A DNA stretch of 64,000 nt from Hyphomicrobiaceae bacterium (GTDB lineage Bacteria > Pseudomonadota > Alphaproteobacteria > Rhizobiales > Hyphomicrobiaceae), in assembly GCA_022844275.1 (NCBI GenBank), contig JALHMB010000001.1:558001-622000 (forward strand). The letters run 5' to 3'. Positions 40,771-60,390 of this stretch are shown here, in pieces. The translations under genes were made by a program, and so were the position numbers. Under the pieces are notes generated by a model. That model did not search any database and was not told where the DNA came from. It saw nothing but the letters and a program-made list of their open reading frames with translations. Position 1 is the first letter of the stretch. Each line of letters begins with the position of its first letter.

Positions 40771-40774
40771 TTAG
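40697..40774. repeat. Long two-part inverted repeat at the sugE 3' end
   Basis: Outer arms CTAAAGC (40697-40703) and GCTTTAG (40768-40774) flank perfect 16-base inner arms GGACCTCGAATGCGAC (40710-40725) and their complement (40749-40764), with a 23-base centre. The outer right arm overlaps the sugE stop codon. The structure could terminate sugE transcription, but no T-run is present. The nested, perfectly matched arms also resemble small palindromic repeat elements dispersed in bacterial genomes. Confidence 0.6.
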
Positions 40775-41091
40775 GCGGGATCGAAGAGCTTGAGGCCAAC
40801 GACGCCCGCGACGATCAGGCCGATACAGGCGATCCGCGCAACCGTTCGGGGTTCACCGAGCAGCGCCATACCGAGGACCATGGCGCCGGCAGCGCCGATG
40901 CCGACCCAGACGGCATAAGCCGTGCCGATCGGAAGGGTACGGGCGGCAATGGACAGCAGGTACAAGCTGAGCACTATGGCCGCGATCGTCCAGATCGAAG
41001 GCCAAAGCCGCGTGAAACCCTCCGAATATTTGAGGCCGATGGCCCAGCCGATCTCGAGAATGCCGGCAGCGACAAGCAGTGCCCAAGCCAT
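40771..41091 (-). CDS. sugE: Small multidrug resistance family exporter, SugE/Gdx type
   Basis: 106 residues, four membrane helices. The start [26 protein letters not shown] carries the essential membrane Glu13 and the [12 protein letters not shown] pattern that separates the SugE/Gdx guanidinium exporters from EmrE-type drug pumps. Gdx proteins exchange guanidinium for protons as antiparallel dimers. The mRNA leader contains a guanidine-II riboswitch candidate, which agrees with this role. AGGAG lies about 9 bases before the ATG. Confidence 0.92.
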
Positions 41092-41111
41092 GGTGACGAT
41101 CTCCTGTATAT

Positions 41112-41157
41112 GGGGTCGTCCCCGTTATCTGCCGCAGCGGCGTCGAGGTCGTCCTCG
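41112..41157 (-). ncRNA. Guanidine-II (mini-ykkC) riboswitch candidate
   Basis: Reading leftward, hairpin P1 is CGAGG-ACGA-CCTCG (41157-41144), a 20-base linker follows, then hairpin P2 is GGGG-ACGA-CCCC (41123-41112). Twin hairpins with ACGR tetraloops are the defining feature of the mini-ykkC/guanidine-II class, which binds guanidinium through its paired loops. P2 ends 6 bases before the AGGAG of sugE, so ligand binding could expose or hide the ribosome site. Gene context (guanidinium exporter) fits exactly. Confidence 0.88.
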
Positions 41158-41198
41158 GCACGGAGGGATATAGGGTTTCGGCTCTCGCGACGCCACCC

Positions 41199-47521: not shown

Positions 47522-47593
47522 GTCGTTTGCCGGCCTGATGCTTATCCCGCCAATACCGCCCAAAAATGCGGCAGTTTCCGACCCTTGCGGTTG

Positions 47594-47608: not shown

Positions 47609-47619
47609 AAGATGCCGTG

Positions 47620-48225
47620 ATGAATGATCGTGCGCTGCTGCACATCCTCGTCATCGACGCCAATCGCATCCGGGCCTCCATCATCGAGGAGGGCCTCAAG
47701 GAGGCCGGACAAACGCGCGTCACCGTCATTGACGAGGCCAAGGGGCTCATGCGCCGCATCGTCGAGCTCGACCCCGACGTGATCGTGATCGACCTCGAAA
47801 GCCCCAACCGCGACGCGCTCGAGCACATGTTCCAGGTATCGCGAGCCGCCAAGCGCCCGGTCGCCATGTTCGTCGACCGCACGGACGATGCCTCCATCGA
47901 GGCGGCCATCGACGCCGGCGTGTCCGCCTATGTCGTGGATGGCCTCAAGAAAGAACGCATCAAGCCGATCCTCGACACGGCGATCAGACGTTTCCGCGCC
48001 TTCGAGCGCCTGCGCGAGGAACTCGATCAGGCGCGCAGCGAACTGAGCGAGCGCAAGCGGATCGAGAAAGCCAAGGGCATTCTCATGCGCACGCGTGGCC
48101 TCAGCGAGGAGAACGCCTACGCGCTCCTCCGCTCGACCGCCATGCAGAAGAACAAGCGTATCGCCGAGATTGCCGAGAGCCTGATCACGGCTGCCGGCCT
48201 GCTCGGCGAGGAGGAAGGACTATGA
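47620..48225 (+). CDS. nasT: ANTAR-domain RNA-binding antiterminator NasT
   Basis: 201 residues from the ATG at 47620. The N-terminal pseudo-receiver (about 1-125) has IDLESPN where response regulators have the phosphorylated Asp region. A coiled segment leads to an ANTAR domain (about 140-198) with ERKRIEKAKGILMRTRGLSEENAYALLR. Family knowledge: NasT binds twin hexaloop RNA hairpins and stops premature termination of nitrate genes, and NasS sequesters it when nitrate is absent. The nasS ATG overlaps its stop, and a matching RNA leader lies before nrtA. Confidence 0.92.
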   Translation: MNDRALLHILVIDANRIRASIIEEGLKEAGQTRVTVIDEAKGLMRRIVELDPDVIVIDLESPNRDALEHMFQVSRAAKRPVAMFVDRTDDASIEAAIDAGVSAYVVDGLKKERIKPILDTAIRRFRAFERLREELDQARSELSERKRIEKAKGILMRTRGLSEENAYALLRSTAMQKNKRIAEIAESLITAAGLLGEEEGL

Positions 48226-49481
48226 ACCGAGCAACGCGATCGAGCGATCCAAACCTCGTCCGCATGGGCTTCATGCCGCTGACGGACTGTGCTCCAGTCG
48301 TGGCGGCAAGTCTGCTCGGCTTCGCGGAGGCCGAGGGCTTGAAGGTGAGCCTCAACAAGGAGGCATCATGGGCGACGCTGCGCGACCGCATTGCCGTGCG
48401 CCATCTCGATGCCGCCCATATGCTCGCGCCCATGCCCATTGCCGCGTGCTTGGGCCTGACGCCACTCGCCGATCGCCTCATCGTGCCGCTCATGCTCGGC
48501 TTCGGCGGCAATACGATCACCGTGTCGCGGGCATTGTGGGCGAATTTGAAGGCCGCTGGCGCACCGACGCGCCTCGAAGCCGAGGGGACGGCCCGTGCCC
48601 TAGCCGAGGTCGTAGCGCAAAGGCAGCGCCAGGGTACGGCGAAGCTCGTCTTCGCCGTGGTCCATCATCACTCGGCGCACACCTATCAGCTCTCGTACTG
48701 GCTTGCTGCTGCGGGCATCATGCCGAATGTCGAGATCGACATTGTCGCTGTTCCGCCACCTCTCATGCCTGCTGCGCTTGCCGCTGGCCAGATCGACGGC
48801 TTCTGCGCCGGCGAGCCATGGGGCAGGGTCGCATCCGTCGCCGGATCCGGCCGCTGCGTCACGACGAATATCGCTATCTGGCGCGCGAGCCCCGAGAAGG
48901 TTCTCGGCGTGGCCCAGGATTGGGCCGAAGAGGATCCCGAGCGCCACTTCCGCCTGATCCGCGCGGTCTACAAAGCCGCCGTGTGGTGCGATGATCCGGC
49001 AAACCGGCCAGAGCTGGCTCGGCTCCTCGCGCGCCCGGAAATCTTCGACCTCCCCGTTCCGATCCTCCACGCCAACCTCGACGGCCGCATCATGATCGAT
49101 GACGGCGAGGATAGTCGTGTCAGCGGCTTCCTGAATTTCTCCAAGTCCGCGGCGAACTTCCCATGGAAGAGCAACGCGGCGTGGTTCTACTCGCAAATGG
49201 TTCGCTGGGGCGAGACGAAGATGAGCGCGGAAGGTTACGCACGCGCGCAGGCGACCTACCGGCCGGATTTGCACCGCGCTGCGCTTGCGCCGCTCGGCGT
49301 ACCGTTACCTACGGCCAACTCCAAAATGGAAGGCGCGCTCGCCGTCGAGACGGCCGTAGCATCGACGGTGGGACGCCTTTTTCTCGCGCCCGATGGCTTC
49401 TTCGACGGCGGTGTTTTTGACCCCGAAAGCGTCGAGGCGTACCTCGCCTCGCAGCCGGTCAAAGCAACCGATCCGCGCTGA
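48222..49481 (+). CDS. nasS: Cytoplasmic nitrate sensor NasS (NrtA-like)
   Basis: 419 residues, related to the nitrate-binding NrtA protein encoded downstream (shared MGFMPLTDCAPVVAA-type start, ANSKMEGA and FFDGGVFDPESVEAYL end) but without a signal peptide. This separates the sensor NasS from the transporter's binding protein. It is coupled to nasT by a 4-base overlap, with GAGGAGGAAGG before the ATG. The known NasS binds nitrate or nitrite and then releases NasT. Confidence 0.88.
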   Translation: MNRATRSSDPNLVRMGFMPLTDCAPVVAASLLGFAEAEGLKVSLNKEASWATLRDRIAVRHLDAAHMLAPMPIAACLGLTPLADRLIVPLMLGFGGNTITVSRALWANLKAAGAPTRLEAEGTARALAEVVAQRQRQGTAKLVFAVVHHHSAHTYQLSYWLAAAGIMPNVEIDIVAVPPPLMPAALAAGQIDGFCAGEPWGRVASVAGSGRCVTTNIAIWRASPEKVLGVAQDWAEEDPERHFRLIRAVYKAAVWCDDPANRPELARLLARPEIFDLPVPILHANLDGRIMIDDGEDSRVSGFLNFSKSAANFPWKSNAAWFYSQMVRWGETKMSAEGYARAQATYRPDLHRAALAPLGVPLPTANSKMEGALAVETAVASTVGRLFLAPDGFFDGGVFDPESVEAYLASQPVKATDPR

Positions 49482-49498
49482 TTTACGAGATGGCTGCG

Positions 49499-49517
49499 TT
49501 GCACGATAAGCGCGCAA
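49499..49517. promoter_or_regulatory. NtrC-like dyad upstream of the nrtA promoter
   Basis: TTGCAC, 7 bases, GCGCAA: 19 bases long like the NtrC consensus site, with one arm mismatch. It lies about 105 bases upstream of the sigma-54 promoter, a normal enhancer distance. Confidence 0.45.
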
Positions 49518-49623
49518 TCGCCCGGTTTCCCGGCGAGGACTCCTCTTCGCACCGCCGGCGTACAAAATCGCCGCTTCGCGCTAAGCAGCTGATCTGGAAT
49601 TGATTTTAGAAGCGTTCTGGAAT

Positions 49624-49639
49624 TGGCACACTTCCTGCT
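49624..49639 (+). promoter_or_regulatory. Sigma-54 promoter of the nrtA operon
   Basis: TGGCAC, 5 bases, CTGCT, against the consensus TGGCAC-N5-TTGCW; both the invariant GG and GC elements are at the correct spacing. Transcription would start near 49650, just ahead of the NasT leader hairpins. Confidence 0.7.
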
Positions 49640-49672
49640 TCTAGGATTAACTTAAGCCAGTCCCAGTTTCCC

Positions 49673-49704
49673 AGCCCAACGACGGGCTACCGGCAGCGCC
49701 GCCG
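49673..49704 (+). ncRNA. ANTAR (NasT) twin-hexaloop antitermination element
   Basis: Hairpin 1: AGCCC-AACGAC-GGGCT (49673-49688). Hairpin 2: CGGC-AGCGCC-GCCG (49691-49704). Both loops are six bases with A at position 1 and G at position 4, the known ANTAR recognition pattern, and they are only 2 bases apart. Hairpin 2 shares bases 49695-49704 with the 5' arm of the following terminator, so NasT binding would prevent termination. Confidence 0.82.
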
Positions 49705-49760
49705 ACACGATGAAGGATCTTCTTTGAAGGTCCGGAGTTCGATGTCGCGGCGCTTTTTTT
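49695..49760 (+). terminator. Leader terminator before nrtA
   Basis: AGCGCCGC plus GACA (49695-49707, one bulged C) pairs with TGTC plus GCGGCGCT (49743-49754), followed by seven Ts (49754-49760). An inner hairpin GGATCTTC/GAAGGTCC fills the loop. It lies about 95 bases before the nrtA ATG and would stop transcription by default. Confidence 0.85.
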
Positions 49761-49853
49761 GTGTCCGGAGCGGACCAAGGCGCCACCAGAAAACGGAAGG
49801 GAACACTGCAGGCGGGCCGTTGCAGGCATTCAACCCGGAGCCAGGAGCAAGGC

Positions 49854-51203
49854 ATGCCCAAGTCAAAAGGTTCGAAATCCGTCATTCGTACCGCGGCAGA
49901 CCCATCCTCGATCGATCGTCGTACATTCATTCGGCAGGCCTCGGCAACAGCAGCCACTGCGGCACTCTTTTCATCAATCAAGGCGACTTTTCCTGGCGGT
50001 GCTTTCGCGCAAGGAGCTGGTCCCGAGGTGAAGGCCGCGAAGCTCGGCTTCATCGCACTGACTGATGCCGCACCGCTTTTCGTCGCAAAGGAAAAGGGCA
50101 TCTTCGCCAAGTACGGCATGCCCGACGTCGAAGTCCTCAAGCAGGCCTCATGGGGCACAACGCGCGACAATCTCGTGCTCGGCTCTGAAGGCAATGGCAT
50201 CGATGGCGCACACATCCTGACGCCGATGCCGTACCTGATCTCGGCAGGCAAGGTCACCCAGAACAACATCCCGACGCCCATGTACATCCTGGCGCGTCTC
50301 AATCTGGATAGCCAATGCATCTCGGTCGGCAAGGAGTACGCAGATCTCCGCATCGGCCTCGACACCAAGCCCTTCAAGGAGGCGCTCGAGAAGAAGAAGG
50401 CATCCGGCAAGGCGGTCAAAGCCGCAATGACGTTCCCTGGCGGCACCCATGATCTCTGGATCCGCTACTGGCTCGCAGCCGGTGGAATCGATCCGGACAG
50501 AGACATCGAAACGATCGTCGTCCCGCCGGCACAGATGGTGGCCAACATGAAGGTCGGCACCATGGACTGTTTCTGCGTTTGCGAGCCATGGAACCACCAG
50601 CTGATCAACCAAAACATCGGCTTCACCGCACTCACAACGGGCGAGCTTTGGAACAAGCATCCCGAAAAGTCCTTCGGCGTGCGCGCCGCTTTCGTCGACA
50701 AGTATCCGAAGGCCGCGAAGGCGCTCCTCATGGCGGTGATGGAAGCGCAGATGTGGTCCGACAAGGACGAGAACCGGGCCGAAGTCGCGGCAATCTGCGC
50801 CAAGCGGCAGTGGATCAATTGTCCCGTTGCAGACGTCACGGATCGCATGAAGGGGAAGTTCGACTACGGCATCCCCGGGAAGGTCGTCGAGAACTCGCCG
50901 CACATCATGAAATATTGGCGCGACTTCGCCTCCTATCCTTGGCAAAGCCACGACCTGTGGTTCATGACCGAGGACATTCGCTGGGGCAAATTCGAGCCGG
51001 GCTATGACTCGGCTGCACTTATCAAGAAGGTCAATCGCGAGGATCTCTGGCGCGAGGCGGCCAAAGAGCTGTCCGTGCCCGCTTCCGAAATTCCAACATC
51101 AACCTCGCGCGGCAAAGAGACCTTCTTCGACGGCAAGGTGTTCGATCCAACGGACCCTGCCGCCTATCTCAAGAGCCTCGAGATCAAGCGCCTCACGGTC
51201 TGA
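49854..51203 (+). CDS. nrtA: Nitrate ABC transporter substrate-binding protein
   Basis: 449 residues from the ATG at 49854 (AGGAG 6 bases before). A Tat signal is clear: SSIDRRTFIRQASATAATAALF, mature region from about residue 48. The body is an NrtA/CmpA-type binding protein with KLGFIALTDAAPLFVAKEKG, a WGTTRDN segment and CVCEPWNHQ. It captures nitrate, or nitrite, in the periplasm. It is the first gene behind the sigma-54/NasT-controlled leader and starts the nrtA-nrtB-ATPase transporter set. Confidence 0.9.
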   Translation: MPKSKGSKSVIRTAADPSSIDRRTFIRQASATAATAALFSSIKATFPGGAFAQGAGPEVKAAKLGFIALTDAAPLFVAKEKGIFAKYGMPDVEVLKQASWGTTRDNLVLGSEGNGIDGAHILTPMPYLISAGKVTQNNIPTPMYILARLNLDSQCISVGKEYADLRIGLDTKPFKEALEKKKASGKAVKAAMTFPGGTHDLWIRYWLAAGGIDPDRDIETIVVPPAQMVANMKVGTMDCFCVCEPWNHQLINQNIGFTALTTGELWNKHPEKSFGVRAAFVDKYPKAAKALLMAVMEAQMWSDKDENRAEVAAICAKRQWINCPVADVTDRMKGKFDYGIPGKVVENSPHIMKYWRDFASYPWQSHDLWFMTEDIRWGKFEPGYDSAALIKKVNREDLWREAAKELSVPASEIPTSTSRGKETFFDGKVFDPTDPAAYLKSLEIKRLTV

Positions 51204-51262
51204 TCAGTCCTCCCGGTGAGGGCGGATGCTCGCACCGACTTCCAAGCCACGGAGAGAACTTG

Positions 51263-52171
51263 ATGAATATGCCTGCGAGCAAATTCGAAGGCGCTATGCC
51301 TTTGGTATCCGCACAGGTGGCATCCACGCCCGCAACGATCGTGCCCATTGGCATTAAGAGACCTTCGATGTCCAGTCGTGCTCTCGCACTCCTGGCCGGC
51401 TTCGCGGCAAGAGTTATCCCGCCCGTTGTCGTCATCGCGCTCTGCCTTATCCTCTGGGAAGTCTTGTGCTCGAAGCCCGGTGCTTCCCTGCCCCCGCCCT
51501 CGCGCGTGCTCGAGGAGACATGGGAGTTGATCGTCGATCCGTTCTACGATCGCGGCGGTATCGACAAGGGCTTGTTCTGGCATCTGTTGGCCAGCCTGCA
51601 GCGCGTCACACTTGGCTATACGCTGGCCATTATTGCCGGTGTCGCTCTTGGTACGTTGGTCGGTCAATCCGTATGGGCCATGCGTGGCCTCGATCCACTA
51701 TTCCAGGTGCTGCGCACGGTGCCGCCGCTCGCTTGGTTGCCTCTCTCGCTCGCAGCTTTCCGCGACGGCCAGCCTTCGGCCATCTTCGTAATTTTCATCA
51801 CCGCCATTTGGCCGATCATCATCAACACCGCCGTCGGAATCCGGAATATCCCGACCGACTATCGAAACGTCGCGGCTGTGTTGCGGCTAAATCAGCTCGA
51901 GTTCTTCTGGAAGATCATGATCCCGGCCGCTGCGCCGTACATCTTCACGGGCCTCCGCATCGGCATCGGCCTCTCCTGGCTCGCGATCGTCGCCGCTGAA
52001 ATGCTCATCGGCGGTGTCGGTATCGGCTTTTTCATCTGGGACGCATGGAACTCCTCGCGCATCAGCGAGATCATCCTCGCCCTCATCTACGTCGGCCTCA
52101 TCGGCTTCATGCTCGACCGGCTGGTCGCCGGCATCGGCCACCTCGCCACGCGCGGCACAGCGTCAGCCTGA
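51263..52171 (+). CDS. nrtB: Nitrate ABC transporter permease
   Basis: 302 residues from the ATG at 51263, with GGAGAG just upstream (a TTG one codon earlier is also open). After about 50 N-terminal residues there are six membrane helices and the EAA-loop region (VLRLNQLEFFWKIMIPAAAPY). The late segment LAIVAAEMLIGGVGIGFFIWDAWN is typical of NrtB/SsuC/TauC permeases. It forms the nitrate channel with the adjacent ATPase. Confidence 0.9.
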   Translation: MNMPASKFEGAMPLVSAQVASTPATIVPIGIKRPSMSSRALALLAGFAARVIPPVVVIALCLILWEVLCSKPGASLPPPSRVLEETWELIVDPFYDRGGIDKGLFWHLLASLQRVTLGYTLAIIAGVALGTLVGQSVWAMRGLDPLFQVLRTVPPLAWLPLSLAAFRDGQPSAIFVIFITAIWPIIINTAVGIRNIPTDYRNVAAVLRLNQLEFFWKIMIPAAAPYIFTGLRIGIGLSWLAIVAAEMLIGGVGIGFFIWDAWNSSRISEIILALIYVGLIGFMLDRLVAGIGHLATRGTASA

Positions 52172-52182
52172 GGAGATCCACA

Positions 52183-52986
52183 ATGGCATCATCGTTCCTA
52201 AGCATCGAACACGTCTGCAAGAGCTTCGCACGAGGTCAGTCGACGACGCAGGTACTGAGAGACATCAACCTCTCCATTGTGCGCGGCGAATACGTCTCGA
52301 TCATCGGCCACTCGGGCTGCGGAAAATCTACGCTCCTCAACCTCATTGCCGGTCTGACAAAGATCACAACCGGCGGCATCATTCTCGAGAACAAGGAGGT
52401 GAACGAGCCTGGCCCCGATCGCGCGGTCGTGTTCCAAAACCACTCGCTGCTGCCCTGGCTCACGACCTATCAGAACGTCAAGCTGGCCGTGGACAAGGTG
52501 TTCTCGCAGTCGAAGTCTCGCGCAGAACGCCACGCCTGGACCATGCACAATCTCGAGCTGGTGCAGATGGTCCACGCCAAGGACAAGCTGCCTGCCGAAA
52601 TTTCCGGCGGCATGAAGCAGCGCGTCGGCATTGCCCGCGCGCTCGCCATGGAACCCAAGGTTCTCCTGCTGGACGAGCCGTTCGGTGCCCTTGACGCGCT
52701 GACCCGCGCCCATCTCCAGGACTCGGTCATGCAGATCCACGCGCGCCTCGGCAATACCGTCATCATGATCACGCACGACGTCGACGAGGCCGTGCTTCTC
52801 TCCGACCGCATCGTGATGATGACCAACGGCCCCTCGGCAACCATCGGTGAGATCCTCGACGTGCCGCTACAGAGGCCCAGGAAGCGCCTGGAGCTTAGCT
52901 CGGACCCCACCTATCTGCGTTCGCGCGAAGCCGTGATGAGATTCCTCTACGAGCGCCATCGCGCTCCAGCATTGCAGGCAGCCTAG
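52183..52986 (+). CDS. nrtD: Nitrate ABC transporter ATP-binding protein
   Basis: 267 residues from the ATG at 52183, with TGAGGAG before it; the longer frame begins inside nrtB. Walker A GHSGCGKST is near residue 42, signature ISGGMKQRVGIARA near 140 and Walker B VLLLDEPFGALD near 160. It lacks the fused binding-protein-like domain of cyanobacterial NrtC, so it matches NrtD. Its presence directly after nrtB completes the transporter. Confidence 0.9.
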   Translation: MASSFLSIEHVCKSFARGQSTTQVLRDINLSIVRGEYVSIIGHSGCGKSTLLNLIAGLTKITTGGIILENKEVNEPGPDRAVVFQNHSLLPWLTTYQNVKLAVDKVFSQSKSRAERHAWTMHNLELVQMVHAKDKLPAEISGGMKQRVGIARALAMEPKVLLLDEPFGALDALTRAHLQDSVMQIHARLGNTVIMITHDVDEAVLLSDRIVMMTNGPSATIGEILDVPLQRPRKRLELSSDPTYLRSREAVMRFLYERHRAPALQAA

Positions 52987-53016
52987 CGTCAACGTCCAGC
53001 AACATGGAGGCGTATC

Positions 53017-53433
53017 GTGACACCAGCGCAGATCGATCTCGTACAGTCCTCCTTCGGCAAGGTCGTCCCGATCGCGGAGACGGCGGCCGGCCTCTTCTAC
53101 GGCCGTCTCTTCGAGAGCGCTCCCGAGGTGAAGCCACTCTTCAGTGGCGACATGAAGGAGCAGGGGCGCAAGCTGATGACGACGCTCGGCGTCGTCGTGA
53201 ACAACCTCAAGAATCCGGATGTCATCGTGCCAGCGGCGAAGGCTCTCGCGGTCAAGCACGTCAGATATGGCGTCACCGCCGAGCACTACGCGCCCGTGGG
53301 CGCCGCGCTCATCTGGACGCTTGAGCAGGGCCTCGGCGACGACTTCACACCTGAAATACGCGACGCCTGGATTGCGGCCTACACACTGCTCTCTGGCGTC
53401 ATGATCGATGAAGCCTACTCCAAGGCTGCCTGA
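53017..53433 (+). CDS. Single-domain bacterial globin
   Basis: 138 residues, start GTG at 53017 with GGAGG 6 bases before. Globin fold features: FYGRLFESAPEVKPLF (B-C-D region with the conserved Tyr and Phe), the proximal His in LAVKHVRYGV near residue 84, and a C-terminal helix. There is no reductase domain, so it is a Vitreoscilla-type globin rather than flavohaemoglobin. Between the nitrate transporter and nitrite reductase genes, a job in handling nitric oxide or nitrite by-products is likely but inferred. Confidence 0.88.
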   Translation: MTPAQIDLVQSSFGKVVPIAETAAGLFYGRLFESAPEVKPLFSGDMKEQGRKLMTTLGVVVNNLKNPDVIVPAAKALAVKHVRYGVTAEHYAPVGAALIWTLEQGLGDDFTPEIRDAWIAAYTLLSGVMIDEAYSKAA

Positions 53434-53454
53434 GCGGCCGGATAGGGAAACAAC

Positions 53455-55923
53455 ATGAAGCAGAAGCTTGTCATAATCGGCAACGGCATGGCGCCAGGAC
53501 GCGCGCTCGAGAAGCTGTTCGAGCTGGCTCCCGACGCCTATGACGTCACGATCTTCAATGCCGAACCGCGTGTGAACTACGACCGCATCATGCTCTCGCC
53601 AGTGCTCTCCGGCGAAAAGACCTTCGATGATATCGTCATCCACGGCGATGGCTGGTACATCGAGCATGGCATCACGCTCTACAAGGGCCACAAGGTCGTC
53701 GAGATCGACCGCGAGGCAAAGACCGTACGCTCCGAGCCCGGCACGGTCGCTTCCTACGACAAGCTGATCATCGCGACGGGCTCGCTACCTTTCATTCTGC
53801 CGGTACCTGGTAGTGATCTTGCGGGCGTGCTCACGTACCGTGATCTCGACGATGTGCAGGCGATGATGCTCGCGGCGAAGGCCGGCGGTCGTGCCGTCGT
53901 CATTGGCGGCGGGCTCCTCGGACTCGAGGCAGCCGCTGGCCTCAAAGAGCAAGGCATGGAAGTCACTGTCCTCCATCTCATGCCGACCCTCATGGAGCGC
54001 CAGCTCGACGTGGCGGCCGGACACTTGCTGCAGAAGGCCGTCGAGGCCCGCGGCATCAAGGTCATCACTAAAGCGAATACCAAGCAGATCGTCGGCAGCG
54101 ACATCCGGCTCGGGCCCGCGCGCGTCGAGGCCGTCGAACTCGAGGACGGCACACGCATCCCCGCCGATCTCGTCGTCATGGCCATCGGCATCCGGCCCAG
54201 TACTGCCCTCGCCAAGGGCGCCGGCCTCGAATGCAAGCGAGGAATCGTTGTCGATGCCGGGCTGCGTACGAGCGACCCAGACATCTTTGCCCTCGGCGAG
54301 TGCGTCGAGGTGGACGGTCAGGTCTTCGGCCTCGTCGCACCGCTCTATGAGATGGCCGGCATTGCGGCCTCTCATCTCGCCGGCGACAGCGAGCCGCGCT
54401 TCGTCCCGAGCGCCACCGCGACCAAGCTCAAGGTCACCGGGATCAATCTCTTTTCCGCCGGCGACTTCGCCGACGCCAAAGATCGCCAGGAGATCGTGCT
54501 GCGTGATGCAGCGCGCGGCATCTACAAGCGCCTCGTACTCAAGGACGACCGCATCATCGGCGTCGTCATGTATGGCGAAACGGCCGACGGCGCCTGGTTC
54601 TTCGATCTCCTGCGCAAAGGCTCGGACATCGCGCCCATGCGCGACACGCTCATCTTCGGACCAGGCTTCGCGGGAGGCGGCCCTGCCGATCCTACAGCAG
54701 CCGTTGCGGCGCTGCCTGACGAAGCAGAAATCTGCGGCTGCAACGGCGTTTGCAAGGGCAAGATCACGACCGCGATCGACACGCTCGGGCTCAAGTCGCT
54801 CGACGATATACGCGCACGCACGAAGGCCTCCGCCTCTTGCGGCTCGTGCACGGGCCTCGTCGAGCAACTCCTAAAGCTCAAGCTCGGCGACCGCTACAAT
54901 ACCGCAGCCGTGCAGCCCATGTGCGGATGTACGCATCTCGGCCATGACGACGTGCGCCGGCTCATTGTCGCCCAGGAGCTGAAGTCGATTCCGTCTCTCT
55001 TGCAGGAACTCGAATGGAAGACGTCATGCGGCTGCGCCAAGTGCCGTCCTGCGCTCAACTACTACCTGCTGGCAACGTGGCCCGGCGAGTATCAGGACGA
55101 TGGCCAATCACGTTTCATCAACGAGCGCGTGCACGCCAATATCCAGAAGGATGGCACCTACTCGGTCGTCCCGCGCATGTGGGGCGGCATGACCAGCGCG
55201 AAGGAGCTGCGCGCAATCGCGGACGTCGTCGAAAAGTTCGCCATTCCGAGTGTCAAAGTCACCGGCGGCCAGCGTATTGATCTCCTTGGCGTGCGCAAGG
55301 AGGATCTGCCCGCTGTTTGGAGCGATCTGAACGATGCAGGCATGGTCTCGGGCGCGGCGTACGCCAAGGGCCTGCGCACCGTAAAGACGTGCGTCGGCAC
55401 GGATTGGTGCCGCTTCGGCACGCAGGACTCGACCGGGCTCGGCATCCGCATCGAGCGCTTCATGTGGGGTTCATGGACACCCGCGAAGGTCAAGATGGGC
55501 GTCTCGGGATGTCCGCGCAATTGCGCCGAGGCGACGTGTAAAGACGTCGGCGTCATTTGCGTCGAGTCGGGCTTCGACATCCACTTCGCCGGTGCCGCCG
55601 GTCTCGATGTGAAGCAGACCGAACTGCTCGGCCACGTCGATACGGAGGACGAAGTCATCGAAGTGATCGCGGCGCTCGTCCAGCTGTATCGCGAGCAGGG
55701 ACGTTATCTCGAACGCATCTACAAATGGACGCGTCGCGTCGGCATCGAGTCGATCCGCCAGCACGTTCTTGATGATCTCGAGCGCCGTCGCGCGCTCCAC
55801 CACCGCTTCGTTTACTCGCAGAAGTTCGCGCAGATTGATCCTTGGGCAGAGCGCGCGCAGGGCAAGGACGCTCACGAATTCCGCCCGCTCGCCGATCTCA
55901 CGCGCGTGGAGGCCGCAGAATGA
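53455..55923 (+). CDS. nirB: NAD(P)H nitrite reductase large subunit
   Basis: 822 residues. An FAD/NAD(P)H oxidoreductase part (about 1-400) begins KLVIIGNGMAPGR and contains AVVIGGGLLGLEAA. Two Cys-rich BFD-like segments follow (CGCNGVCKGK with CGSC; CGCTHLGHD with CGCAKC). The sulfite-reductase-like siroheme/4Fe-4S part is in the C-terminal half (TCVGTDWCRFGT and SGCPRNCAEATC cluster ligands). It reduces nitrite to ammonium with six electrons from NAD(P)H. The nirD ATG overlaps its stop. Confidence 0.95.
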   Translation: MKQKLVIIGNGMAPGRALEKLFELAPDAYDVTIFNAEPRVNYDRIMLSPVLSGEKTFDDIVIHGDGWYIEHGITLYKGHKVVEIDREAKTVRSEPGTVASYDKLIIATGSLPFILPVPGSDLAGVLTYRDLDDVQAMMLAAKAGGRAVVIGGGLLGLEAAAGLKEQGMEVTVLHLMPTLMERQLDVAAGHLLQKAVEARGIKVITKANTKQIVGSDIRLGPARVEAVELEDGTRIPADLVVMAIGIRPSTALAKGAGLECKRGIVVDAGLRTSDPDIFALGECVEVDGQVFGLVAPLYEMAGIAASHLAGDSEPRFVPSATATKLKVTGINLFSAGDFADAKDRQEIVLRDAARGIYKRLVLKDDRIIGVVMYGETADGAWFFDLLRKGSDIAPMRDTLIFGPGFAGGGPADPTAAVAALPDEAEICGCNGVCKGKITTAIDTLGLKSLDDIRARTKASASCGSCTGLVEQLLKLKLGDRYNTAAVQPMCGCTHLGHDDVRRLIVAQELKSIPSLLQELEWKTSCGCAKCRPALNYYLLATWPGEYQDDGQSRFINERVHANIQKDGTYSVVPRMWGGMTSAKELRAIADVVEKFAIPSVKVTGGQRIDLLGVRKEDLPAVWSDLNDAGMVSGAAYAKGLRTVKTCVGTDWCRFGTQDSTGLGIRIERFMWGSWTPAKVKMGVSGCPRNCAEATCKDVGVICVESGFDIHFAGAAGLDVKQTELLGHVDTEDEVIEVIAALVQLYREQGRYLERIYKWTRRVGIESIRQHVLDDLERRRALHHRFVYSQKFAQIDPWAERAQGKDAHEFRPLADLTRVEAAE

Positions 55924-56264
55924 CTGTCATGGAGAAGGCCTGGATCGACATCGGCGCCCTCGATGACATCCCGCGCCTCGGCGCGCGCGTCGTGAAGACG
56001 CCGCTCGGCTGCATCGCAGTTTTTCGTGCAGACAACGATGAGGTCTACGCGCTGGACGATCGCTGCCCACACAAGAATGGACCGCTGAGCCAGGGCATTG
56101 TCCATGGCCGCACGGTCACCTGCCCGCTGCACAACTGGGTCATCTCGCTTGAGCGGGGCACGGCCGAGGGCGCCGACGAGGGACAGGTCCGAACCTACAG
56201 CGTGCGCGTGGATGGCGGACGTATTCTCATTGACGCAGATGTGCTGCTCGCGCGCACGAACTGA
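55920..56264 (+). CDS. nirD: Nitrite reductase small subunit (Rieske-type)
   Basis: 114 residues from the ATG at 55920, overlapping the nirB stop (ATGA). Rieske cluster ligands are CPH near residue 46 and CPLHNW near residue 66. The protein has the short NirD length and assists NirB. The nitrate reductase gene starts 9 bases later. Confidence 0.93.
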   Translation: MTVMEKAWIDIGALDDIPRLGARVVKTPLGCIAVFRADNDEVYALDDRCPHKNGPLSQGIVHGRTVTCPLHNWVISLERGTAEGADEGQVRTYSVRVDGGRILIDADVLLARTN

Positions 56265-56273
56265 GTTAGGTCC

Positions 56274-58937
56274 ATGAACGGGGGCACAACGCGAACGACT
56301 TGCCCCTACTGCGGCGTCGGCTGCGGGATACTGGCGCGGCCACGCAGCGACGGCACAGCCGAGATTGCGGGCGACCCCGAGCACCCGGCAAACTTCGGCC
56401 GCCTGTGCTCGAAGGGCGCCGCCCTCGGCGAGACGCTGTCGCTCGAAGGGCGGCTGCTTTACCCACTCGTTCACAGCGAACGCGCGAGTTGGGATGAAGC
56501 ACTCGATCTCGTCGCGCAGAGGTTTTCGGCGGCCATTGCCAAGCATGGACCCGACAGCGTTGCCTTCTATCTCTCGGGCCAGCTGCTGACCGAGGACTAC
56601 TACGTCGCCAACAAGCTCATGAAAGGCTTTTTCGGCTCGGCCAACATCGACACCAACTCGCGGCTGTGCATGGCTTCCTCGGTGGCGGGACATCGGCGCG
56701 CATTCGGCACCGATACGGTGCCCGGCACCTACGAGGATCTGGAACTTGCAGATCTCGTCGTGCTCGTCGGCTCGAATCTCGCCTGGTGCCATCCGGTGCT
56801 CTACCAGCGCTTAGCGGCAGCCCGGGAGGCGCGCGGCACGAAGATCGTCGTCATTGATCCGCGTGAGACGTCGACGTGCGAAATCGCCGATCTTCATCTG
56901 GCCATAGCACCGGGCGCGGACGTAGCCCTCTTCAATGGGCTTCTCGCACATCTTACCGCCAGCGGGCGGCTCGATGTTGAATACATCGCGCAGCACACGC
57001 GTGGCCTACCCGCCGCACTCGCTGCCGCATCCAGCATGAGCCTTGCCGAGATCGCAGCCACGACGGCCTTGCCGACGTCGCTCATTGCCGATTTCTACGA
57101 GCTGTTCGCCGATACGGAACGCGTCGTCACCGTCTACAGCCAGGGCGTGAACCAGTCGTCCGCCGGGACGGACAAAGTGAATGCCATCCTCAACTGTCAT
57201 CTCGCAACGCGGCGCATCGGCCGGCCCGGTATGGGGCCGTTCTCGGTCACCGGCCAGCCGAATGCCATGGGCGGGCGCGAGGTCGGCGGGCTGTCGAATT
57301 TGCTCGCGGCGCACATGGAGCTCGACAATCCCGAGCATCGCCGCGCCGTCCGCGAGTTCTGGAACGCGCCGATAATTGCCGACAAGCCGGGCCTCAAGGC
57401 CGTCGATCTCTTCCACGCCGTCGAAGAGGGGCGCGTCAAAGCGCTGTGGATCATGGCGACCAATCCGGTCGTCAGCCTGCCCGAAGCCGATCGCGTGAGA
57501 GCGGCAATCGCAGCCTGCCCGTTCGTCGTAGTCACGGACGTCAATCGCCATACCGACACGACGGCTCTCGCGCATGTTCTGTTGCCCGCAGCCGCCTGGG
57601 GCGAGAAGGACGGAACAGTCACCAACTCCGAGCGGCGCATATCGCGTCAACGCACATTCCTACCCTTACCGGGCGAGGCACGGCCCGACTGGTGGCAGAT
57701 GGCGGAGGTCGCGAAGCGCTTGGGGCATGGCGCAGCGTTCCCCTACACCAGCCCCGCCGAGATTTTCGCCGAGTACGCACGGCTGACCGGCGTAGAAAAC
57801 GACGGCGCACGCGATCTTGATATCAGCAGCGCGGCGAAACTTTCCCACGCCGAATACGACGCGCTCGTTCCATTCCAATGGCCGCGCCCCGCAGGTGCTC
57901 GCCCGCAAACGACGCGCTTCTTCGCCAGCGGCAGATTCTATACGCCCGACCGCCGCGCGCGCTTCGTGCCGACGCCCTTCAAAGGACTCGCGCAGGCCAC
58001 AACGACGCGCGCGCCCCTGACGCTCAACACGGGCCGTATCCGCGATCAGTGGCACACGATGACGCGCACGGCGAAATCGCCGCGTCTCATGGGTTCTGCG
58101 CCGGAGCCGTTCATCGAGATCCATCCAACGGATGCAACAACCTTCGGCATCGTTCATGGCGCTCTCGCGGAAGTCGAGAGTCCGACAGGCACGATCATCT
58201 GCCGGGCCGCCGTCACCGATCGCCAGAGCGCCGGATCTCTGTTCGTCCCCATGCACTGGACGAGCCAGCTTGCCAACCGCGCCCGCGTGGGCGCTCTCAT
58301 CGCGGCATTCACCGATCCGTTCTCGGGGCAGCCCGAGCTCAAGGGAATGCCCGTATCGATCCGTCCGTTCGATGTCGCGTGGCAGGCCTTCGCGGTCACG
58401 CGCCGCGCACCAAACGCGCAAGCCGCTTACGTAGCAACGGCAGCCGTCAATGGCGGCTTCCGCACGGAGCTGGCGCTGCACGAGGCGCCCGAAAATTGGG
58501 ATGAACTCGCGCTGCAGATGCTCCCCGCCGGCAGCAAAGAGAACACCGAGCTGCTCGCTTATCATGACACTGCCGCGGGCCAATATCGCTTTGCCGCCTT
58601 CTCCGGCGAACAGCTCGTCGGCGCACTCTTCGTCGCACGCGGTACCCTCTCCTGCGCACGGGATTGGATTGCGGCGCAGTTGCGCGAGCCCATACCACCA
58701 GCCGCGCGCCTGCGGGTGCTCGCCGGACGTCCGGGTGGAGAGAGCAAGGATCGCGGCCCCATTGTCTGCGCCTGTTTCGAGGTGGGCCACAACGAGATCG
58801 TGGAAGCCATTACCAAGAGCGGGGCCGTGACTGTCGCGACCGTCGGCGCATGCGTGAAGGCCGGAACAAACTGCGGCTCGTGCCGCGGAGAGATCAGAAG
58901 GATACTCGATGCCGCTCGCATCCCGGAAGCCGTCTGA
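56274..58937 (+). CDS. nasA: Assimilatory nitrate reductase catalytic subunit
   Basis: 887 residues of the molybdopterin oxidoreductase superfamily. N-terminal 4Fe-4S ligands are CPYCGVGCG plus a Cys in GRLCSKG. There is a molybdenum-guanine-dinucleotide domain (about 60-600), a molydop-binding domain (about 580-700) and an added C-terminal BFD-like [2Fe-2S] domain (about 830-880) with ICACFEVGHNE and CGSCRGE. It reduces nitrate to nitrite in the cytoplasm. The extra cluster probably receives electrons; no separate NasB flavoprotein gene is adjacent, so the donor is not identified. Confidence 0.94.
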   Translation: MNGGTTRTTCPYCGVGCGILARPRSDGTAEIAGDPEHPANFGRLCSKGAALGETLSLEGRLLYPLVHSERASWDEALDLVAQRFSAAIAKHGPDSVAFYLSGQLLTEDYYVANKLMKGFFGSANIDTNSRLCMASSVAGHRRAFGTDTVPGTYEDLELADLVVLVGSNLAWCHPVLYQRLAAAREARGTKIVVIDPRETSTCEIADLHLAIAPGADVALFNGLLAHLTASGRLDVEYIAQHTRGLPAALAAASSMSLAEIAATTALPTSLIADFYELFADTERVVTVYSQGVNQSSAGTDKVNAILNCHLATRRIGRPGMGPFSVTGQPNAMGGREVGGLSNLLAAHMELDNPEHRRAVREFWNAPIIADKPGLKAVDLFHAVEEGRVKALWIMATNPVVSLPEADRVRAAIAACPFVVVTDVNRHTDTTALAHVLLPAAAWGEKDGTVTNSERRISRQRTFLPLPGEARPDWWQMAEVAKRLGHGAAFPYTSPAEIFAEYARLTGVENDGARDLDISSAAKLSHAEYDALVPFQWPRPAGARPQTTRFFASGRFYTPDRRARFVPTPFKGLAQATTTRAPLTLNTGRIRDQWHTMTRTAKSPRLMGSAPEPFIEIHPTDATTFGIVHGALAEVESPTGTIICRAAVTDRQSAGSLFVPMHWTSQLANRARVGALIAAFTDPFSGQPELKGMPVSIRPFDVAWQAFAVTRRAPNAQAAYVATAAVNGGFRTELALHEAPENWDELALQMLPAGSKENTELLAYHDTAAGQYRFAAFSGEQLVGALFVARGTLSCARDWIAAQLREPIPPAARLRVLAGRPGGESKDRGPIVCACFEVGHNEIVEAITKSGAVTVATVGACVKAGTNCGSCRGEIRRILDAARIPEAV

Positions 58938-60390
58938 GCAGGCTCCGCCGCGCATGGCGGCGCTGGCCACTCTGCCTGTCTTCCTCAATCTGGAAGGCCA
59001 GCGCGCAATCATTGCGGGTGGCACCGCGGCGGCTGCATGGAAGGCCGAGCTTCTCGCCGCTGCCGGCGCCGATGTGCAGATCTTCGCGCCTGAGATCTCC
59101 ACCGAGATGGGAGGCTTGCTCACGCGCAGTGCAGCATCGGGCACATTGACACACCACGTCGCACCATGGACCGCGGAGATTCTCGCGGGTGCCGCCATCG
59201 CAATAGCCGATGCGGAGGACGATGAGGAAGCTGCGATTTTTTACGACGCCGCGCGCGCAACCGGCGTGCCTGTGAACGTCATCGACAAACCGGCCTACTG
59301 CCAGTTTCAGTTCGGCGCCATCGTCAATCGCTCGCCCGTCGTCGTCGGGATATCGACCACAGGTGCCGCACCTATTCTAGGCCAGGCCATACGCCGCCGT
59401 ATCGAGACACTTTTGCCACCGACCCTCGCGCTCTGGGGCCAGCTTGCCGGCAAGATCAGGGAACACGTCGGGGCGCGTCTCTCTGCAGGTGCCGCACGGC
59501 GTGCGTTCTGGGAAAAGTTCGTCGACCGTGCGTTCGGCCCCGCGCCCGCGCGTAGCGAAGTACAGCACCTAGGCAATTTCATCGATGCTCTGTCGGTGCA
59601 AACCAAATCCAGCGGGCGCGCGACGCTTGTCGGAGCTGGCCCTGGCGACGCCGAGCTTCTGACACTCAAGGCTGTCCGCGCGCTGCAGGCCGCGGATGTC
59701 ATCCTCTACGATGATCTCGTGTCCGATGAGGTGCTGGAGCTGGCGCGGCGCGAGGCCAAGCGCATGCTCGTCGGCAAACGCGGCGGCCTCAAAAGTTGCC
59801 GCCAGGAGGACATCAACGCGCTCATGGTGAAGCTTGCGCGGCAAGGCCGGCATGTGGTGCGGCTCAAGTCCGGCGATCCCATGATCTTCGGACGTGCCGG
59901 CGAGGAGATCGAACAGCTCGAGCGCGCCGGCATTCCCTGTGAGGTCATTCCCGGCATCACGGCAGCGAGCGCTATGGCCTCGGCGCTCGGCATTTCGCTG
60001 ACGCACCGCGACCAAGCGCAATCCGTGCGTTTCGTCACTGGCCATTCGCGCGCCGGCGGCTTGCCGGAGACACTGGACTGGCGCGGTCTTGCCGATCGCG
60101 ACACCACGCTGATCGTCTACATGGGCGGGCGCACTGCCGGCGCTCTTGCGGCACGCCTTATTGCAGAAGGACTTCCAGCGGGCACGCCGGCAGTCGCGGT
60201 CGCCAGCCTCTCCCGCGCGGCAGAAGCACGCTGGCAGGGCACGCTCGCGACACTGCCAGAAACGGAACTCCTCGCTTCGGTGAAAGGGCCGCTCCTCATC
60301 GGCATTGGCGGAGTTTTTGCCCGTCGCGCCGTCAGTCTGGCCCAGTGCGACGATGCCATTCCAGCCCAAGAGACCGCACTCATCGGCTGA
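58909..60390 (+). CDS. cysG: Siroheme synthase (multifunctional CysG)
   Basis: 493 residues. The N-terminal dehydrogenase/ferrochelatase half (about 20-230) starts VFLNLEGQRAIIAGG; the usual GGGxVA dinucleotide motif reads GGTAAA here. The C-terminal uroporphyrinogen-III methyltransferase half (about 235-475) has GAGPGDAELLTLKA, VVRLKSGDPMIFGR and IPGITAASA. It makes siroheme for NirB. The ATG at 58909 overlaps nasA by 29 bases and has AAGGA 6 bases before it; an internal ATG at 58954 is an alternative. Confidence 0.92.
   Translation: MPLASRKPSEQAPPRMAALATLPVFLNLEGQRAIIAGGTAAAAWKAELLAAAGADVQIFAPEISTEMGGLLTRSAASGTLTHHVAPWTAEILAGAAIAIADAEDDEEAAIFYDAARATGVPVNVIDKPAYCQFQFGAIVNRSPVVVGISTTGAAPILGQAIRRRIETLLPPTLALWGQLAGKIREHVGARLSAGAARRAFWEKFVDRAFGPAPARSEVQHLGNFIDALSVQTKSSGRATLVGAGPGDAELLTLKAVRALQAADVILYDDLVSDEVLELARREAKRMLVGKRGGLKSCRQEDINALMVKLARQGRHVVRLKSGDPMIFGRAGEEIEQLERAGIPCEVIPGITAASAMASALGISLTHRDQAQSVRFVTGHSRAGGLPETLDWRGLADRDTTLIVYMGGRTAGALAARLIAEGLPAGTPAVAVASLSRAAEARWQGTLATLPETELLASVKGPLLIGIGGVFARRAVSLAQCDDAIPAQETALIG

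Follow-up and report, generated by a model that had tools for sequence, protein, structure and literature searches.

A dual-hexaloop leader overlapping an intrinsic terminator ahead of nrtA in a Hyphomicrobiaceae bacterium, a very probable NasT-controlled attenuator

The window, by which we mean the whole 64,000-nucleotide stretch of Hyphomicrobiaceae DNA analysed here, carries on its plus strand a nitrate gene locus with a 372-nt gap between the end of nasS and the start of nrtA. On the 5' side, nasT (47617..48225) encodes a response regulator of the antiterminator type with REC and ANTAR domains (Pfam Response_reg, 6.9e-10; ANTAR, 7.1e-19). The GTG start at 47617 is our choice, the listed open reading frame (ORF) beginning at 47566. 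A genome-wide search gave this NasT as the single ANTAR match, and the closest NasT among records named to genus was that of Hyphomicrobium sp. CS1BSMeth3 (96% identity over the best segment). The nasS gene (48222..49481), overlapping nasT by 4 bases, encodes an NMT1-like protein of the binding-protein type (Pfam NMT1_2, 2.4e-71), which we call a nitrate sensor since the nasTS literature assigns it that role. A REC-ANTAR NasT and a binding-protein-like NasS are hence encoded side by side, as in NasS-NasT systems. The first gene downstream of the gap encodes an nrtA-type binding protein of a nitrate ABC transporter (49854..51203; NMT1_2, 9.1e-107) and is followed, from 51260 to 60390 and never more than about 60 nt apart, by nrtB-type, nrtC-type, globin, nirB, Rieske (nirD-type), nasA-type molybdopterin reductase and cysG-type siroheme synthase genes. 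The transporter and nasA names rest on domains and context, the nasA ORF matching the NasC and Fdh-alpha models under both cut-offs, whereas NirB matched its equivalog model over the cut-off (1.4e-268). The putative target genes are those of nitrate and nitrite assimilation, again as in a NasS-NasT system.

The gap holds two hairpins and a terminator. Hairpin P1 (49673..49688, plus strand) pairs AGCCC (49673-49677) with GGGCT (49684-49688) around the loop AACGAC (49678-49683), and P2 (49691..49704, plus strand), the predicted antiterminator hairpin, pairs CGGC (49691-49694) with GCCG (49701-49704) around AGCGCC (49695-49700); a 2-nt linker, AC (49689-49690), separates them. Both loops have A at position 1 and G at position 4 (A1/G4), the pattern of the first and second hexaloops of a dual-hexaloop ANTAR target. 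The intrinsic terminator (49695..49760, plus strand, 12 bp) has the 5' arm AGCGCCGC(C)GACA (49695-49707), starting at the first P2 loop base, the 3' arm TGTCGCGGCGCT (49743-49754) and a run of seven T (49754-49760), the last of which lies 94 nt 5' of the nrtA start codon. Its 5' arm absorbs the entire P2 loop and the P2 3' arm save one bulged base (49703). P2 and the terminator are mutually exclusive, as in ANTAR targets, and have bases 49695-49704 in common. The twin hexaloops and the overlap of the second hairpin with a seven-T terminator, both claimed in an earlier sequence-only reading of this DNA, were confirmed base by base. The same reading placed nasT and nasS immediately upstream; they do lie upstream, with 191 nt between nasS and P1.

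Folding of the RNA from 49665 to 49770 gave P1 plus the terminator at -48.4 kcal/mol (z = -4.7; none of 200 shuffles was as stable), and RNA ending before the terminator 3' arm folded as P1 plus P2 at -15.2 kcal/mol. By itself, the energy of the twin hairpins is ordinary, 18 of 200 shuffles being equally stable. We then defined an array as two A1/G4 hexaloops on stems of 4 bp or more, the second of which overlaps a stem of 7 bp or more before five Ts. On both strands of the window there is one such array, at 49673-49760. First-order Markov shuffling produced an array in 1 of 200 versions of the window (one strand scanned) and in 3 of 20,000 versions of the intergenic region. The rarity resides in the combined array, not in the stability of the twin hairpins. 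A second twin-hexaloop pair, inside nasS (48558-48592), failed the scan requiring an overlapping terminator. A whole-window Rfam scan returned no family at its gathering score over the leader, and two matches there were taken as chance: gyrA at 49732-49798 (18.3 bits, cut-off 45) and ncS54 (12.6 bits, cut-off 43). Elsewhere in the window, a Guanidine-II (mini-ykkC) riboswitch match on the minus strand (41111-41160; 39.5 bits, gathering cut-off 32) lies 19 nt 5' of a 106-aa minus-strand ORF (40771-41091) resembling, by eye, a small multidrug-resistance-type (guanidine exporter) protein, an ordinary arrangement.

We compared the leader with its family relatives, using a sample of 103 genomes. 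ANTAR proteins were present in 48 of these, and 52 regions 3' of ANTAR genes were fetched. From the 53 places so obtained (the window plus 52), 35 leaders, the window included, were aligned without reference to structure. This alignment omits nine leaders with long linkers, L079 (odd P1), L039 (P1 mismatch), L037 (leader between nasT and nasS) and the six places at which no such leader was found (L046, L056, L060, L063, L078 and L083). At L037 (genome G010), nasT is separated from nasS by tandem hexaloops and a sigma54-type site, an arrangement that may bring nasS, too, under the control of NasT. A1 and G4 of both loops were present in 35/35 aligned leaders, an invariance that is partly built in since the selecting scan demanded those bases; the compensatory changes are less so. 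The same bases were present in 9/9 long-linker leaders, which that scan had missed. Positions 3, 5 and 6 of the P1 loop and 2, 3 and 6 of the P2 loop vary freely among the 35, and their linkers measure 1-8 nt.

The stems covary in this alignment. For P1 plus P2, 98.1% of cells were paired, with 33 both-side changes compared to 9.7 after shuffling and 0-3 after sliding; for P1 plus the terminator, the figures were 97.8% and 58, compared to 19.7 and 0-3. Compensatory changes on both sides affected 5 of the 6 P1 pairs. Over the three P2 pairs counted, all cells pair, one pair changing on both sides and two being invariant. The overlap of P2 with the terminator is kept in the relatives, and the terminator arm covaries. 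Given these covarying stems and the rarity of the array in shuffles, we rejected a coincidental pair of hexaloops. Relatives that keep the terminator and lose the hexaloop bases, which the sequence-only reading had named as contrary evidence, were limited to one clear exception against the 35 and nine leaders above: at L187 (G024:C688), of the same genus, a second leader-like element (about 853-939) has the P1 loop AACCAT, with no G4, and carries a terminator and a sigma54-type site 5' of a frame resembling, by eye, a GntR-type regulator.

The covariance search suggested in that reading was run with R1, a model of P1 plus the terminator of which the window is one member. It gave one match in the window's own genome at E <= 0.001, and matches in 42 of the 103 genomes sampled from the family and 78 of the 297 sampled from the order, the model and ANTAR searches at order level being taken as covering the same set because counts and handles agree. 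R1 co-occurred with ANTAR proteins in both samples: within the family, 39 genomes had both, 3 the model only, 9 ANTAR only and 52 neither (Fisher p 3e-16, kinship uncorrected), and within the order the counts were 76, 2, 75 and 144 (Fisher p 2e-25, likewise uncorrected). The three family genomes with R1 only are 70-83% complete; of the two order genomes, G232 is 78% complete and G180 is listed as 100% complete. Eight of the nine family genomes with ANTAR only had a hexaloop leader in a different layout, and in G075 no hexaloop leader was found. At order level, R1 had no match in 75 of the 151 ANTAR-bearing genomes, and the hexaloop scan yielded no leader at any of the Bradyrhizobium-titled loci it covered.

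At the 80 R1 matches outside the family, hairpins were picked blind to the loop letters, while R1 itself weights A1/G4. Both loops had A1/G4 in 49 places, P2 only in 13, P1 only in 5 and neither in 13 (per loop, 62 for P2 and 54 for P1), and several loops had G instead of A at position 1. Eight of the 80 rows had no usable P1, so that part of the misses belongs to the hairpin finder. At four Mesorhizobium loci (L086, L088, L090 and L091), a second leader copy lies about 3.5 kb 3' of the first, followed in L086 and L088 by a transporter-like frame (MFS-type by eye).

The site scans relied on general consensus patterns for sigma54 and NtrC. A sigma54-type promoter, TGGCACACTTCCTGCT (GG-N10-GC), is predicted at 49624..49639 on the plus strand with 2 mismatches to consensus, which would place the +1 at about 49650, 23 nt 5' of P1. 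An NtrC-like dyad, TGCAC-N7-GCGCA, lies at 49500..49516 (plus strand) with 1 mismatch; dyads with at most one mismatch number 3 in 64 kb, and a 1-mismatch site stands at a similar position in two (L032 and L064) of nine relatives examined. Since the window holds 44 sigma54-type sites at up to 3 mismatches, the match at 49624-49639 means little alone. Candidate sites with at most 2 mismatches occurred 5' of 10/35 aligned family leaders (shuffled mean 0.07), 7/9 long-linker family leaders (0.015) and 50/79 order-level leaders (0.2; L279, of the 80 loci, was too short for this count and for the third-hexaloop count below). Near such leaders, putative sigma54-type sites are thus far above chance. 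A scan of 49400-49900 gave no sigma70-type site. A transcript start downstream of the hairpins had been named beforehand as evidence against antitermination: the sigma54-type site predicts a start upstream of them, but 25 of the 35 aligned leaders have no such site at up to 2 mismatches.

The variant leaders differ in spacing and copy number. The nine long-linker family leaders (L040-L045, L047, L080 and L081), from two family genera (g7 and g13), have the same loop bases and linkers of about 27-37 nt; with those from records titled Rhizobiales bacterium, Peteryoungia, Rhizobium and Ciceribacter (L118-L121 and L128), the range is about 27-39 nt. An extra hairpin, lacking A1/G4, tends to be present in the long linkers. 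In a small structure-blind alignment this hairpin had 72% of cells paired and zero both-side changes, so that it rests on position and recurrence, not on covariation. When 14 long linkers were each folded singly, 7 reached shuffle p < 0.05 (one, L043, had been cut too long). A search with model R2 matched 10 of 297 order-level genomes, that of the window included, and a hairpin-chain scan of five R2-matched loci gave no chains. Moreover, 13 of 79 order-level leaders carry a third A1/G4 hexaloop hairpin within 45 nt 5' of the R1 match, compared to about one expected, and none of 300 base shuffles reached that count. Third hexaloops 5' of P1 are found at L220, L222, L227, L228, L232, L234, L262, L278, L285 and L289, and in the family at L032, L071 and L076. 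We found no paper on three-hexaloop NasT leaders within the open-licence literature.

Three hexaloops also recur in the Rfam family P11 (RF00625). The Pseudomonas "sRNA" P11 is reported to act on C. elegans. The primary papers on P11 and the nitrogen-assimilation operon are reportedly Marogi 2024, Romeo 2012 and Nie 2024. Among 398 genomes of the phylum, 14 had P11 above the cut-off, and we examined 12 loci (L300-L311). All 12 had a sigma54-type site, a terminator was present, and the longest downstream frame was NirB-like, by eye, in 11. Nine of the 12 had three A1/G4 hexaloops, where the window has two; two loci had two and one had one. The window matched the P11 model at 20.1 bits (E 0.015-0.026) against a gathering cut-off of 70 bits, too weak a match for filing its leader under P11. 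A P11 search of its own genome returned eight other places at 12-16 bits, the window site being absent, and at the same loose E-value 9 of 14 control genomes had a match. P11 has been called a small RNA regulating the nitrogen-assimilation operon (PMC12080996). A joint reading, which we offer tentatively and somewhat doubt, is that NasT leaders break the fixed two-hexaloop, tight-spacing rule of EutV and that P11 is the terminated NasT leader of nirBD. If both held, the 2-nt linker of the window would be one end of a range including third-hexaloop and long-linker leaders, and P11, built on tandem hexaloops, could keep NasT off other targets. The common anatomy suggests that P11, a much-discussed "sRNA", is best taken in the first place for an attenuated leader. 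The 35 and nine family leaders and the 80 outside places are natural variants in spacing and copy number that could test the successive reading of hexaloops by an ANTAR dimer, as proposed for EutV. The third hexaloops, the linkers with an extra hairpin and the anatomy of P11 are more unusual than the leader of the window.

We consider it very probable that this leader is a NasT-controlled transcription attenuator working by NasT-dependent antitermination, a mechanism described in other genera. The anatomy and rarity of the array, the covariation of P1 and the terminator, the co-occurrence with ANTAR proteins, the sigma54-type sites 5' of leaders and the published precedents support this reading. 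Counting against it are the 2-nt linker, shorter than EutV tolerates, the two mismatches of the sigma54-type site and the 25 aligned leaders lacking a close one, the G4-less P1 of L187, the two order genomes with R1 and no ANTAR match, the ANTAR-bearing order genomes and Bradyrhizobium loci that gave no leader match, and the choice of the 35 leaders partly by A1/G4. Under nitrogen limitation, NtrC and sigma54 RNA polymerase would start the leader at about 49650. Without nitrate, NasT would be held by NasS, P1 would form and the P2 bases would be drawn into the terminator, leading to a stop at about 49760, within the T run, and a terminated leader RNA of roughly 105-110 nt. Nitrate or nitrite would release NasT from NasS, and the NasT dimer would meet the emerging hexaloops, with G4 as the specific base, and stabilise P2. 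Holding P2 would block the terminator and allow read-through into nrtABC-globin-nirBD-nasA-cysG, a 10.5-kb gene run presumably transcribed as a single unit. The sequence-only reading had spoken of a full base-level model for nitrate-dependent antitermination, which is fair only as a hypothesis, and the mechanism was already published in other genera. The locus would represent a minimal nitrate switch, with a single ANTAR protein and a single detected target in its genome and with predicted promoter, hexaloop and terminator bases.

Other explanations of the same features have to be weighed against this one. The hairpin and its seven Ts could be a mere terminator of the nasTS operon, with the nrtA promoter further 3' and incidental hexaloops. 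Indeed, nasTS transcripts would also run into the hairpin, given its place between nasS and nrtA, and the 25 of 35 family leaders lacking a close sigma54-type site upstream are in keeping with this possibility. We nevertheless regard it as quite unlikely: the stems covary and the terminator overlap is kept in relatives, the array is rare in shuffles, a sigma54-type site stands 5' of the hairpins here and before 50/79 order-level leaders, and 49400-49900 holds no sigma70-type site. It is less likely still that the attenuator is real and takes its main input from something other than NasT, such as RNA that senses a metabolite, a leader peptide or an sRNA acting in trans. The weak, sub-threshold Rfam matches at the leader (P11, gyrA and ncS54) would speak for such an input, against which R1 tracks ANTAR proteins over 103 and 297 genomes, nasTS adjoins the leader and no riboswitch family reaches its cut-off here. 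We give least credence to the notion that NasT works through translation or RNA stability and not through antitermination, given that P2 overlaps a strong seven-T terminator, that this overlap is conserved and that the nrtA start codon lies 94 nt beyond the T run. What favours it comes from elsewhere: nas control in P. denitrificans has an added translational level (PMC5424462), and ANTAR RNAs are described as acting on translation or termination (PMC8164766).

The predicted NasT-dependent antitermination at this locus can be set beside known systems. In the Paracoccus denitrificans nasA leader, as here, nasTS lies directly 5' of a hairpin-bearing non-coding leader of about 200 bp (PMC3795266, PMC5424462). 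NasT binds this leader RNA there, and nitrate dissociates NasS-NasT (PMC3795266); the first hairpin, HI, is essential, its mutation severely lowering the activity of a nas promoter fusion (PMC5424462). Binding of nitrate-freed NasT to the leader of the window would be the counterpart. The downstream genes differ, with nasABGHC after the leader in P. denitrificans and the ABC transporter genes nrtABC first in the window. In Pseudomonas, the NasT/NalA nirBD leader likewise combines a sigma54 promoter, NtrC, a leader terminator and NasT, with P. putida NasT acting on the sigma54/NtrC-driven leader (review PMC12830290), which agrees with the putative sigma54-type site and NtrC-like dyad of the window. 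Klebsiella oxytoca NasR at nasF is also a nitrate-responsive ANTAR antitermination system with A1/G4 hexaloops (PMC3369931, PMC7496416); NasR fuses the nitrate sensor to ANTAR, whereas NasS and NasT of the window are separate proteins. The eut leaders of Enterococcus faecalis, controlled by EutV, share the dual hexaloop with P2 embedded in the terminator (PMC3369931, PMC8934654), but respond to an ethanolamine/EutW signal and have linkers of 5-12 nt compared to 2 nt in the window (PMC3369931). For EutV, a 3-nt linker drastically cut induction (PMC3369931), lengthening the linker by 20 nt abolished antitermination, and the hexaloops are modelled as contacted while they emerge (PMC8934654). For actinobacteria, a linker range of 2-25 nt has been used (PMC8164766); the 2-nt linker of the window falls inside this range and outside that of eut, and the 35 aligned leaders have 1-8 nt. 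Set against these systems, the leader is a clean new example of a well-known RNA switch, the mechanism of which is not new.
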